From the NCBI RefSeq assembly GCF_032163395.1, contig NZ_CP119968.1, forward strand, positions 1,907,501 through 1,971,500: a DNA stretch of 64,000 bases, given 5' to 3'. Below, piece by piece: positions 3,997-54,562 of the stretch. The notes under the pieces are model-generated. The model searched no databases. It saw nothing but the letters and a program-made list of their open reading frames with translations, and was not told the DNA's origin. A program made the position numbers and the translations under genes. This DNA is from Gloeocapsopsis dulcis. Its GTDB lineage: Bacteria > Cyanobacteriota > Cyanobacteriia > Cyanobacteriales > Chroococcidiopsidaceae. The number at the start of each line of letters is the position of its first letter. Positions within the stretch are counted from its first letter, which is position 1.

Positions 3997-6465
3997 ATGT
4001 TTGAATACTTTACAGATAAAGCCATCAAGGTAATCATGCTATCCCAGGAAGAAACACGTCGCCTGGGGCACAACTTGGTAGGAACCGAGCAGATTCTTTT
4101 AGGCTTGATTGGAGAAGGTACGGGAGTAGCAGCAAAAGTGCTGACCGAGCTGGGAGTATCCCTCCAAGATACACGCACAGAAGTCGAGAAAATTATCGGT
4201 AGGGAAAATCGATTTGTCCCTGCTGAACTTCCTTTCACTCCCAAAGTTAAGCGTGTTTTTGAGCAAGCCCTAGCTGAAGCTCGGCAACTCGGAAACAACT
4301 ATATCGATACAGAACACATTTTGTTAGGATTGCTCCGCGAAGGCGACGGAGTAGCAGCAAAAGTCCTCAGTAATTTAGGTATTCACCCAGAGGAAATTCG
4401 CACTGCAGTTATCAAAAAGCATGGAGAGGTAGCGGCGGTTTCTGTTGGTAGCACTGAACGTCGCGGTGGTCGCACTGCAAGTAAAACAGCTACTCTAGAC
4501 GAATTTAGCATCAATTTAACGAAGCTAGCCGCAGAAGGTAAGCTTGACCCAGTTGTTGGACGCGAAAAAGAAATTGAACGCGCGATCCAGATTCTGGGAC
4601 GTCGGACGAAGAATAACCCTGTCTTAATCGGTGAGCCAGGCGTTGGTAAAACTGCGATCGCTGAAGGACTCGCACAACGGATTGTTGCCCAAAGCGTTCC
4701 TGATATCCTGGAAGATCGCCAAGTCGTCAGCCTAGACATGGGCTTACTCATTGCTGGTACGCGCTTCCGTGGTGACTTTGAAGAACGTATCAAAGCAATC
4801 ATGGATGAAATTCGCGCTGCGGGTAACATCATCTTAGTGATTGACGAAATTCACACTTTGATTGGTACTGGTGGTGTTGAAGGTGGTATGGATGCAGCAA
4901 ACCTCCTCAAGCCAGCATTAGCCCGTGGTGAATTGCAATGTCTCGGTGCTACAACACTTGATGAATACCGCAAGCACATCGAACGCGATGCAGCACTTGA
5001 GCGTCGTTTCCAGCCAATTATGGTTGGCGAACCTTCGGTAGATGAAACAATTGAGATTCTGCACGGTTTACGTGCTACTTACGAACAGCATCACCGCGTC
5101 AAAATTACTGATGTCGCGCTACAAGCCGCTGCGAAGCTATCAGATCGTTACATTAGCGATCGCTTTTTACCCGATAAAGCGATCGACTTAATTGATGAAG
5201 CTGGTTCGCGCGTGCGTTTAAGAAACTCGCAAGCATCTGCTACAAGCCAAGTCAAGCGCGAATTAGTACAAGTATCGCGCGATAAAGAAGCCGCAGTTAA
5301 AGCACAAGACTTCGACAAAGCAGGACAAATACGCGATCGCGAGTTAGAACTCGAAGCCCAAATTAAGGCGATTTCTGAAAATCAGAACAAGGATGTCAAC
5401 ACTCCTGTTGTTGATGAAGAAGACATTGCACAGATCGTTGCTTCGTGGACTGGCGTTCCCGTTAATAAGCTGACTGAAACTGAATCTGAGTTGCTGTTGC
5501 ACTTAGAAGACACCTTGCATCAGCGGATTATCGGTCAACAAGAAGCTGTCACCGCAGTTTCTAGAGCTATTCGCCGCGCCAGAGTCGGCTTAAAGAGTCC
5601 CGATCGCCCAATCGCTAGCTTTATCTTCTCAGGTCCTACCGGAGTTGGTAAAACTGAATTAACCAAGGCACTTGCTTCCTATTTCTTCGGTTCAGAAGAA
5701 GCGATGATTCGCCTCGATATGTCCGAGTTTATGGAACGCCACACGGTTTCCAAGCTGATTGGTTCACCTCCAGGATACGTTGGTTACGACGAAGGCGGAC
5801 AACTCACAGAAGCAGTACGTCGCAAACCTTACACCGTAGTGCTATTCGACGAAATTGAAAAAGCACACCCTGATGTCTTCAACATGATGTTGCAAATCAT
5901 GGATGATGGTCGCTTGACTGATGCCAAAGGTCGTACAGTAGACTTCAAGAATACGCTACTGATCATGACTTCCAACATTGGTTCGCGAGTAATCGAAAAA
6001 GGTGGCGGTGGTATAGGTTTTGAGAGTGCTTACAGTCAAAGTGAGTCTAGCTACAATCGCATTCGCAATCTTGTGAATGAAGATCTCAAGCAACAATTCC
6101 GTCCTGAGTTTCTCAACCGCGTAGACGATATTATTGTCTTCCGTCAGTTGACAAAACCAGAAATTACGCAAATCGCAGATATCCTATTACGCGAAGTTTC
6201 CACCCGATTAGTAGAACAAGGAATCGAGCTTGAAGTGACTGCTAGGTTCAAAGATCGCGTAGTACAAGAAGGCTACAATCCCAGCTATGGTGCAAGACCG
6301 TTACGTCGAGCAATCACGCGACTTCTTGAAGACAGCCTAGCTGAAGCAATGCTAGCTGGTGAAATCAAACTTGGAGACACAGCTGTTGTTGATGTTGACG
6401 ATCGCGGCGAAGTGAAGGTAGAAAAAGCAGCCAACAAAGAATTGTTACTATCTTCCGTCAGCTAA
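3997..6465 (+). CDS. clpC: Clp protease ATP-binding subunit ClpC (Hsp100 chaperone)
   Basis: 822 residues, the usual length. Two N-terminal Clp repeats (about 5-75 and 80-150) are followed by the first AAA+ module with Walker [14 protein letters not shown] and a [10 protein letters not shown] Walker B, the UVR-containing middle domain (about 420-460), and a second AAA+ module with [27 protein letters not shown] and sensor residues near [11 protein letters not shown]. ClpC unfolds substrates and feeds them to the ClpP/ClpR core; in cyanobacteria it is the essential Hsp100 and, with NblA, takes part in phycobilisome breakdown (nblA lies at 32.9 kb). The start ATG has an AGGA-type ribosome-binding site. 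A terminator follows directly. Confidence 0.97.
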
Positions 6466-6945: not shown

Positions 6946-8040
6946 CTAGCTGTTAATTGCAGGTGCCGTCATCGCAACTGGTACAACTTCACCTGTAGCT
7001 AAATCAAGCGGAAAGTTGTGTGCATTACGTTCGTGCATCACTTCCATACCCAAGTTGGCGCGGTTTAATACATCAGCCCAAGTGCTAATCACACGTCCTT
7101 GAGAGTCGAGAACGGACTGGTTAAAGTTAAAGCCGTTCAAGTTAAATGCCATAGTACTGATACCCAAAGCAGTAAACCAGATACCAACTACAGGCCATGC
7201 TGCAAGGAAAAAGTGTAGTGTACGACTATTTGCAGTGGTTCCCAAAATAATCTCGTTCGTCCGTCCAATCAGGCGACCAAAGTAACCGTGAGCAGCTACG
7301 ATATTGTAAGTTTCTTCCTCTTGCCCGAACTTGTAGCCGTAGCTTTGAGACTCACTTTCAGTCGTTTCACGCACGAGAGTTGAGGTTACTAGTGAACCGT
7401 GCATTGCACTAAACAGCGCACCACCGAATACACCTGCTACTCCTAGTTGATGGAACGGGTGCATCAAGATGTTGTGTTCTGCTTGGAACACTAACATGAA
7501 GTTGAAAGTGCCACTGATACCTAAAGGCATTCCATCCGAGAAGCTTCCTTGACCAATAGGGTAAATCAAGAATACGGCAGTAGCAGCGGCGACGGGTGCA
7601 GAGTAAGCCACAGCAATCCAAGGACGCATCCCTAGACGGTAGCTGAGTTCCCACTCGCGTCCCATATAGCAAAATACGCCAATGAGAAAGTGGAAAATTA
7701 CCAGTTGATAAGGTCCGCCGTTATACAGCCATTCATCTAAACTTGCAGCTTCCCAAATTGGGTAAAAGTGCAAGCCGATCGCATTCGAGGATGGTACAAC
7801 TGCACCTGAAATGATGTTGTTGCCATACAACAGCGAACCCGCAACAGGCTCCCGAATTCCGTCAATATCAACGGGTGGTGCAGCAATGAAAGCAATGATG
7901 AAACAGGTGGTTGCAGCAAGCAACGTCGGAATCATCAACACGCCAAACCAGCCTACATAAAGGCGATTATCAGTGCTAGTGACCCAATTGCAGAACTGCT
8001 CCCACAGATTCGCGTCGCGTCTCTGTAGAGTCGTTGTCAT
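6946..8040 (-). CDS. psbA: Photosystem II D1 protein with a rewritten QB-site loop
   Basis: 364 residues against the usual 360. The residues expected for a water-oxidising D1 can be found: the tyrosine of LIYPIG (YZ, Tyr161), Asp170 (FSDGMP), Glu189 (FQAEHN), His198 in the MHPFHQLG region, His215 (SAMHGS), His272 (TLHFF) and the C-terminal [14 protein letters not shown] block (His332, Glu333, His337, Asp342, Ala344), followed by a cleavable tail. It has the Glu130 form (GREWEL). The anomaly is between HGYFGRLI and NSR: the canonical FQYASFN (260-266, with Ser264 and Phe265 that hold QB and herbicides) is replaced by [12 protein letters not shown] (own residues 259-270, bases 7231-7266). The change is in frame with normal sequence on both sides. 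The N-terminus is one residue shorter than usual. The gene is divergent from a TetR regulator and has its own terminator. Confidence 0.97.
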
Positions 8041-8092: not shown

Positions 8093-8114
8093 ATTAACTG
8101 ACTTGTTAGTTAAT
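8093..8114. promoter_or_regulatory. Palindromic operator candidate in the psbA-tetR intergenic region
   Basis: Half-sites ATTAACTGAC and GTTAGTTAAT are separated by two bases and match in 9 of 10 positions. Size and symmetry fit binding of a TetR-family dimer. It overlaps the predicted -10 of the minus-strand psbA promoter by three bases and extends over the likely transcription start, so bound protein would block psbA. Confidence 0.65.
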
Positions 8115-8140
8115 ATGCCGCAATAAACTTGTTTTGTCAA
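8112..8140 (-). promoter_or_regulatory. Predicted psbA promoter
   Basis: On the minus strand a perfect -35 TTGACA (8135-8140) is followed after 17 bases by CATATT (8112-8117, 4 of 6 matches to the sigma-70 -10). It lies about 70 bases upstream of the psbA ATG. Confidence 0.6.
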
Positions 8141-8179: not shown

Positions 8180-8209
8180 TTGACGGAAAAGCATTTCAGC
8201 GCCTATGAT
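8180..8209 (+). promoter_or_regulatory. Predicted promoter of the tetR-family gene
   Basis: TTGACG (8180-8185), 18-base spacer, TATGAT (8204-8209). It is placed about 40 bases before the GTG start at 8249 and is separate from the psbA promoter, so the two divergent promoters lie back to back. Confidence 0.6.
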
Positions 8210-8248: not shown

Positions 8249-8920
8249 GTGGTAACTAAAGCAGGAAAAGCAGCAAAGTCAGCTAAACAGGTTCGAGATG
8301 CAGAAGCGACGAAAATAGCAATACTTGATGCAGCCGAAGCAGAATTTGCACAGTACGGTTTAAACGCGGCGAAGACTGAAGAGATTGCTGCGAAGACAGG
8401 CGTCACCAAGGCGATGATTTACTACTATTTCAAGAGTAAAGAAGATCTTTACGTAGCTGTGTTAGAGCGGATATTTTTTGGTAGGTACATGGATTCGATT
8501 CAGTTAGAAGCACTTGAACAGCTACCACCTGAACAAGCACTAGAAAAGCTCATCCGGCGACAAATCGCTACTGATTTTAATTATCCGCACCTTGGTCCGA
8601 TTCAAATTCACGAAGCGCTGCAAAATCAAGGTAAGTATTACAAACACGTTCTCAGCAGCGATCGCGCGCAACAAGTATTTGGCATAGTTACAAAAATTCT
8701 AGAGCGAGGAATGGCAGAAGGATGTTTCCGTAAACTTCATCCACAGCATACTGTGATGAATATCTTAGGAGCTTGTAATTTCTACTTTACTGCCTACGAG
8801 AACTTTAAGTATCTGTGGCAAGGAGTGCCCTTACTGAGTCCAGAAATGGTGGAAGAACACTCTCAAGAAGTTGTTGATTTAATTCTGGCTGGTGTCAGAA
8901 ATCGAGAGCCAAGAAAGTAG
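8249..8920 (+). CDS. TetR/AcrR-family transcriptional regulator, divergent from psbA
   Basis: 223 residues from a GTG start. The N-terminal domain (about 20-70) has the TetR helix-turn-helix: ILDAAEAEFAQYGLNAAKTEEIAAKTGVTKAMIYYYFKSKEDLY in family terms, with the classic TG(V)xKAxIYYYFxSKEDLY recognition end. The C-terminal part is an all-helical ligand/dimer domain of the TetR_C type, rich in aromatic residues (CNFYFTAYENFKYLW). TetR proteins usually repress the neighbouring divergent gene and release on ligand binding; here that gene is the unusual psbA. The palindrome at 8093-8114 is the natural candidate target. The ligand cannot be told from sequence. Confidence 0.9.
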   Translation: MVTKAGKAAKSAKQVRDAEATKIAILDAAEAEFAQYGLNAAKTEEIAAKTGVTKAMIYYYFKSKEDLYVAVLERIFFGRYMDSIQLEALEQLPPEQALEKLIRRQIATDFNYPHLGPIQIHEALQNQGKYYKHVLSSDRAQQVFGIVTKILERGMAEGCFRKLHPQHTVMNILGACNFYFTAYENFKYLWQGVPLLSPEMVEEHSQEVVDLILAGVRNREPRK

Positions 8921-53482: not shown

Positions 53483-54562
53483 ATGACAACAACTCTACAA
53501 AGACGCGAAAGCGCATCATTGTGGGAGCGGTTTTGCAACTGGGTAACATCAACAGATAACCGGCTATACGTAGGCTGGTTTGGCGTGTTAATGATCCCAA
53601 CGCTACTAGCAGCAACAACCTGCTTCATCATCGCCTTCATAGCAGCCCCCGTAGACATCGACGGCATCCGCGAACCAGTAGCAGGTTCATTAATCTACGG
53701 CAACAACATCATCAGTGGAGCAGTAGTACCATCATCAAACGCGATCGGACTACACTTCTACCCAATTTGGGAAGCAGCATCATTAGATGAGTGGCTCTAC
53801 AACGGTGGACCATATCAATTAGTGATCTTCCACTTTTTGATTGGAGTATTCTGCTACATGGGAAGAGAGTGGGAATTATCCTACCGCCTAGGTATGCGGC
53901 CGTGGATTGCCGTAGCCTACTCAGCACCCGTTGCAGCAGCAACAGCAGTATTCTTGATCTACCCAATTGGACAAGGTTCATTCAGCGATGGCATGCCATT
54001 GGGAATCAGCGGCACATTCAACTTCATGTTAGTGTTCCAAGCAGAGCACAACATCCTGATGCACCCATTCCACCAGTTAGGAGTAGCAGGGGTATTCGGT
54101 GGGGCACTGTTCAGTGCGATGCACGGTTCATTGGTAACAAGCTCGTTAGTGCGTGAAACAAGCGAAAGCGAAAGCCAAAACTACGGCTACAAATTTGGAC
54201 AAGAAGAAGAAACATACAACATCGTAGCGGCACACGGTTACTTTGGACGTCTGATCTTCCAATATGCCAGCTTCAACAACAGCCGTGCGTTACACTTCTT
54301 CTTAGCAGCATGGCCAGTAGTGGGCATTTGGTTCACATCGTTGGGCATCAGCACGATGGCGTTCAACCTCAACGGGTTCAACTTCAACCAATCAGTGATT
54401 GACTCGCAAGGTCGCGTGATTGGCACTTGGGCAGATGTACTCAACCGCGCTAACTTGGGGATGGAAGTGATGCACGAGCGCAATGCTCACAACTTCCCAC
54501 TCGACTTGGCTGCGGGAGATGCAATTCCTGTTGCTCTGACTGCTCCTAGCATCAACGGTTAA
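53483..54562 (+). CDS. psbA: Photosystem II D1 protein, second copy, canonical QB site
   Basis: 359 residues from ATG 53483; the open frame extends 19 codons upstream but D1 starts [10 protein letters not shown]. Contrary to the first copy, the DE loop is normal ([22 protein letters not shown]), so Ser264 and Phe265 are present. Ligands Asp170, Glu189, His332, Glu333, His337, Asp342 and the C-terminal Ala344 are in place, and Glu130 indicates the high-light form. One codon is missing: the conserved AAPPVDIDG reads AAPVDIDG, so a proline (56 or 57) next to Asp59/Asp61 is lost. A terminator follows. Confidence 0.97.

Follow-up and report, generated by a model that had tools for sequence, protein, structure and literature searches.

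The window, the whole stretch of 64,000 nucleotides of Gloeocapsopsis dulcis DNA that was analysed, carries a complete psbA gene for a variant D1 protein of photosystem II (PSII), and divergent from this gene lies one for a TetR-family regulator. The locus comprises the following features.

6946 to 8040 (-): psbA, variant D1 of 364 aa; stop within the coordinates; loop type shared by 11 distinct relatives
7219 to 7221 (-): codon of T270, the residue accompanying the loop; threonine in 11/11 variants and 0/57 ordinary D1s; coordinate counted by hand
7231 to 7266 (-): replaced QB/herbicide loop, 36 bases for 12 residues in place of FQYASFN (260-266), by alignment
8094 to 8113 (strand not applicable): palindrome TTAACTAACAAGTCAGTTAA, proposed TetR operator overlapping the -10, by motif conservation
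8112 to 8140 (-): promoter-like pair of psbA, TTGACA (8135-8140), 17 nt, CATATT (8112-8117); consensus match only
8180 to 8209 (+): promoter-like pair of the TetR gene, TTGACG-18-TATGAT; consensus match only
8249 to 8920 (+): divergent TetR-family regulator, 223 aa, PF00440 and PF17938

The psbA frame has no internal stop, and its product scores 764.9 bits against the TIGR01151 psbA profile, above the curated cut-off of 596.05, which places it among the D1 proteins. The four other psbA copies of the genome, one of which lies in the same window (53483-54559, +), are 87-93% identical to the variant and carry FQYASFN at the loop position in three cases and WQYASFN in one; FQYASFN also stands there in the best PDB D1s among the matches listed. 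In an ordinary D1 this loop holds the exchangeable quinone and is bound by many herbicides. The earlier note had claimed that FQYASFN, with Ser264 and Phe265 as the QB-holding residues and the site of DCMU and atrazine action, is replaced by a 12-residue loop five residues longer, and reading frame, profile and alignment bear this out. The 36 bases of the loop occur once in the genome when up to three mismatches are allowed.

Distribution of the loop type and descent of the gene

A search for like loops among D1 proteins, which the earlier note had proposed, yielded 12 genomes and a conserved loop type, represented by 11 distinct full-length variants and a partial one, the truncated variant of FACHB-471 (L071); counts of variants refer to the 11. 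An alignment of six loop regions searched against 388 genomes of the order found the loop in nine, at E values of 7e-49 to 8e-41, the next match being an ordinary D1 at 1e-33. Of the nine, seven belong to the 19 genomes sampled from the window's own family; G266 (family f15) and G244 (family f19) make up the rest. The trait is rare, since a phylum sample of 386 genomes yielded two at E <= 1e-35, both counted before. Scanning the contigs of GTDB 220 for the motif gave 11 stretches. Six of these are psbA genes of cyanobacteria, namely Leptolyngbyaceae M33_DOE_097, FACHB-471 (truncated at the end of its contig), Coleofasciculus S288, a Chroococcidiopsidaceae MAG, Phormidium tenue FACHB-886 and Gloeocapsopsis crepidinum. 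In the five non-cyanobacterial stretches the motif was absent from any frame of at least 60 aa. Three of the six cyanobacterial matches share the D1 of G266, G008 and G001, and the total is therefore counted as 12 genomes; the variant of G001, a member of the window's genus, is that of Gloeocapsopsis crepidinum LEGE 06123 (L012, L078). The loop consensus is GR[TL]NE[IVAL][IV]LGT[TYAQNR]A, with the loop of G244 diverged and one residue shorter (four residues longer than the ordinary loop, as against five elsewhere). Ordinary-loop copies, with FQ or WQ, are found alongside the variant in 10 of the 12 genomes, the two left being G266, whose second copy breaks off ahead of the loop, and G671. A phage origin was considered and rejected: a scan of viral contigs for the motif matched one contig, with no D1 among its ORFs, and IFQYASFN is present in 80/80 viral D1s among the matches listed, of 599 relatives.

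All 11 variants have G260, R261, N, E, L, G, A266, N267 and T270 in common. Across 28 pairs drawn from eight of the 11 variants, representing eight lineages, synonymous difference is 0.76 outside the loop and 0.56 inside it, and non-synonymous difference 0.067 outside and 0.145 inside. Judged by these substitution levels, the variant gene is old and constrained, with the constraint on the loop looser than that on the rest of the protein. The trees do not join the variants in a single clade, an arrangement contradicted by the loop-free tree, in which the 11 variants require four changes among 47 rows, and by trees built from the 5' and from the 3' part of psbA, in which they require five and three changes, respectively, among 35 rows. 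In genome G006 the variant shows 92-100% base identity to an ordinary copy of that genome over windows of 30 codons with starts between codons 16 and 226, with 88% in the first window and 60-86% in windows from codon 241 on; the match covers codons 16-255 and stops at the loop. We read this as gene conversion that homogenises the body of the variant with the ordinary D1 of its host and spares the loop. Because G006 shows such a tract, the scatter of the variants among the trees is best read as recombination, with repeated gain of the loop as a formal alternative.

Cofactor ligands and the QB pocket

Retention of the ligands of the Mn cluster, YZ, P680 and the non-haem iron, as the earlier note had described it for this gene, extends to 11/11 variants at each tested position: the Mn-cluster ligands at seven positions, and Y161, H190, H118, H198, H215, H272, E244 and Y246. 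With the seven Mn-cluster ligands intact in all variants, the view that this is neither a rogue/sentinel D1 nor a chlorophyll f synthase also stands. S264 and F265 are both present in 57/57 distinct ordinary D1s (sequences of at least 353 aa, without duplicates), whereas neither is present in any of the 11 variants by alignment, and residue 270, threonine in every variant, is serine or alanine in every one of the same ordinary D1s. These absences, together with the donor-side ligands and the conserved loop, support the reading as a real acceptor-side variant. A threonine is aligned to S264 in 10/11 variants, while an ungapped count from R257 puts the invariant glutamate there, and the position aligned to F265 is occupied by six different residues across the 11 variants. 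The rest of the pocket is largely kept, with H252 present in 11/11 variants and F255 in 10/11; F211L, M214L, F255L and L275F occur in one variant each, and position 274 is changed in five. According to PMC4030317, the distal oxygen of QB is held by S264 and the amide of F265, F255 and F265 pack on the QB ring, and the first proton is thought to be passed by S264 with H252. AlphaFold2 models had a mean pLDDT of 37.0 for the variant (36-row alignment) and 33.5 for the window's ordinary D1, run as a control, values too low to show the geometry of the loop.

Comparison with known D1 proteins places the variant close to the standard (group 4) form (6wj6_A, 7yq7_A), which it resembles in the whole fold by sequence, in all tested cofactor ligands and in the processing site DLA at 342-344, and from which it differs in the 260-266 loop, longer by five residues (four in G244), in T270 and in the dedicated regulator adjoining its gene. 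Herbicide-resistant D1 point mutants, such as S264G, are altered at the same inhibitor contact, but there the change is a single residue and here it is a whole conserved loop in an extra copy that appears to be regulated. The atypical D1s (rogue/sentinel and chlorophyll f synthase; groups G0-G2) are likewise extra psbA paralogues with a special role, but several of the Mn-cluster ligands that the variant keeps are lost in them, according to a 2025 survey of D1 diversity (PMC12096807), which also describes the S264/F265 region as structurally well conserved in its D1 groups. Searches of open-licence PMC papers, judged by title and start of abstract, listed nothing on this loop or on a TetR gene adjoining psbA. 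The variant is thus new as a form of D1, not as a kind of protein, and the module of regulator and psbA is undescribed as far as the searched literature goes.

The adjoining regulator and the palindrome

A TetR homologue or an NB-ARC/WD40 protein is encoded within 1.5 kb of 11/11 distinct variants, as against 1/44 ordinary psbA places; 76 psbA places were collected in total, 65 of them ordinary, and 21 of the latter were dropped for having less than 800 bp upstream. The TetR gene adjoins six variants, including that of L068, where the protein is just 45% identical. Beside the other five (L072, L077, L184, L185, L186) stands a gene for an NB-ARC/WD40-type protein, some 1,160-1,210 aa long, whose N-terminal part is conserved and which carries WD40 repeats. 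Pfam recognises NB-ARC in two of the five (L072, L184), the other three being related by tblastn; the gene is divergent in four cases, and in G244 it is convergent and lies behind psbA. The window's psbA is located between clpC and hsp20 genes and other lineages have other neighbours, and because these outer neighbours differ beyond close relatives, regulator and psbA look like a conserved unit. The lone ordinary-loop psbA with a regulator is at 4211-5290 (-) of L187 (= L102) in genome G008, where the TetR is 50% identical. The D1 encoded there is itself diverged, with the loop LLWQYASFH and changes such as PTSAAVALHF, and represents a second TetR-linked alternative D1. As TetR, by its position, would also control this protein, a strict link between the TetR type and the variant loop is weakened. 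Assignment to a defence system was rejected: PADLOC returned no hit for the TetR, and HEAT-ARM_XIII was all that it gave for the two WD40 proteins submitted to it.

The motif AACTRACnnGTYAGTT lies upstream of psbA in 6/6 TetR-linked variants, two copies being present in L068, and in no other among 73 distinct psbA upstream regions; a divergent TetR gene and a palindrome at the promoter thus occur together in all six. A related palindrome is found upstream of L102. In the window's own genome the palindrome has one exact match, and a wide regulon was rejected, the other matches all having three mismatches and numbering 10, compared with 19 in the control. Three promoter-like sites were found, against a mean of 0.6 in shuffled sequences, and an overlap of the proposed operator with the -10 is a usual position for a repressor. 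The NB-ARC/WD40-linked psbA genes share TAACT, five or six bases, and TAACTG, followed by ACA in four of the five. The AACT steps of this element are about 10 bases apart, and it may be an activator site.

The wider family of the regulator offers some indication of what it may sense. The TetR profile matched 77 of the 388 genomes at E <= 1e-45, and of the best 30 loci six are beside psbA and 24 elsewhere. Among the divergent neighbours of these 24, 13 are Rieske-type proteins (two recognised by Pfam, the others judged by eye on their N-termini), two are HlyD-like (Pfam recognising one), one is a P450 and one an FAD-binding protein; for seven loci no neighbour could be assigned. Such neighbours (Rieske-type, P450, HlyD) would fit regulators that sense foreign small molecules. 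NB-ARC/WD40 proteins, as a family, are associated with ligand sensing. As an observation in its own right, many cyanobacteria carry a relative of the TetR divergent from the gene of a Rieske-type protein of 317 aa (L206-L229).

Function of the variant D1

The explanation that we favour, to which we would give a probability of roughly 0.45, is that the product of the gene is an alternative D1 made on induction, whose QB pocket has been rebuilt and which most likely tolerates natural inhibitors of the QB site. The protein would still be working and water-oxidising, with the distal wall of the pocket probably rebuilt by the loss of S264, F265 and N266 and the substitution of the longer loop GRxNE-LG-A together with T270, and with H215, H252, L218, V219, L271 and the iron ligands retained around it. 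The neighbouring TetR is proposed to bind the palindrome at the -10 and keep the variant psbA off until it binds a small molecule, which would switch the gene on; in other lineages the NB-ARC/WD40 protein would take the regulator's role. The inducer is most likely a natural QB-site inhibitor or something that accompanies one, and the variant D1, entering PSII by normal D1 turnover, would present a target which the inhibitor no longer fits, its pocket still working with plastoquinone. Several PSII inhibitors are reported to be made by cyanobacteria (PMC2525484). The idea of an inhibitor gains indirect support from the regulators adjoining the gene and from the genes beside the regulators' relatives. 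Inducible resistant copies of antibiotic targets are known, and by analogy they too have a sensor adjoining a second copy of the target, whereas the target here is a photosystem subunit and its tolerance is our proposal. Slightly more tentatively, the variants may constitute an undescribed class of D1 in a regulator and psbA module, present in several cyanobacterial lineages, that couples small-molecule sensing to a swap of the QB pocket against natural inhibitors, the loop being protected by selection from gene conversion.

Three observations count against the favoured explanation: L102 shows that this kind of control can go with an ordinary loop too, non-synonymous change is higher in the loop than in the rest of the gene, and seven of the 24 TetR relatives have no assigned divergent neighbour. 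The first of these speaks for the alternative that survives best, although we consider it rather doubtful, in which the protein is a stress-state D1 that tunes the acceptor side of PSII for one condition, such as drying, high light, anoxia or a reduced plastoquinone pool, with the loop shifting the QB potential or slowing exchange to allow safe recombination and the regulators sensing an internal metabolite or redox cue. Cyanobacteria hold multiple D1 forms for differing conditions. D1 groups are set out in PMC12096807, and the window gene is flanked by clpC and hsp20, though its neighbours differ in other lineages. The use of two regulator types, however, would suggest a chemical cue, and the change is limited to the loop that contacts inhibitor and quinone, the remainder being like ordinary D1.

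The loss from all variants of S264 and F265, which are the principal distal contacts of QB according to PMC4030317, and a loop longer by four or five residues, would also suit a PSII whose QB site is filled by the loop and which is built but does no work, serving protection or storage, a role that has been proposed for further alternative D1s. This is unlikely, as most of the remaining pocket residues tested are retained, with H215 and H252 present in every variant, and the same holds for every Mn-cluster ligand tested, for which an idle PSII would have no use. Adaptation of PSII to a different quinone, to which the position of the changed residues around the quinone head would correspond, appears more improbable again, the variant being found beside ordinary D1s both in three of the families sampled from the order and in further cyanobacteria. 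A sequencing error, an assembly artefact or a decaying gene, possibilities against which the earlier note had measured its own reading, has a negligible probability and is, at the sequence level, already refuted by the conservation of the loop across independent assemblies, with open frames, a conserved regulator, and low protein change beside high synonymous change.

The variant suggests that poisons of the photosystem and defences against them have an ecology of their own. At S264 and F265 photosystem II has a contact central to both quinone and inhibitor, and in a selected, regulated-looking D1 that lacks the two residues nature has run an experiment on the requirements of QB binding, protonation and exchange.

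Two minor observations concern the ordinary copies. The psbA at 53483-54559 (+), of 359 aa and with an ordinary loop, is missing one proline of AAPPVD, both of which are present in the other aligned copies. Tryptophan in place of phenylalanine at D1 position 260 (WQYASF) occurs in the genome's own copy at C1:3788972-3790048 (L005) and in L091, L093, L095, L090, L101 and L089, which together span seven genomes of the family, and in the loop-free tree six of the seven cluster, with L089 at their base.
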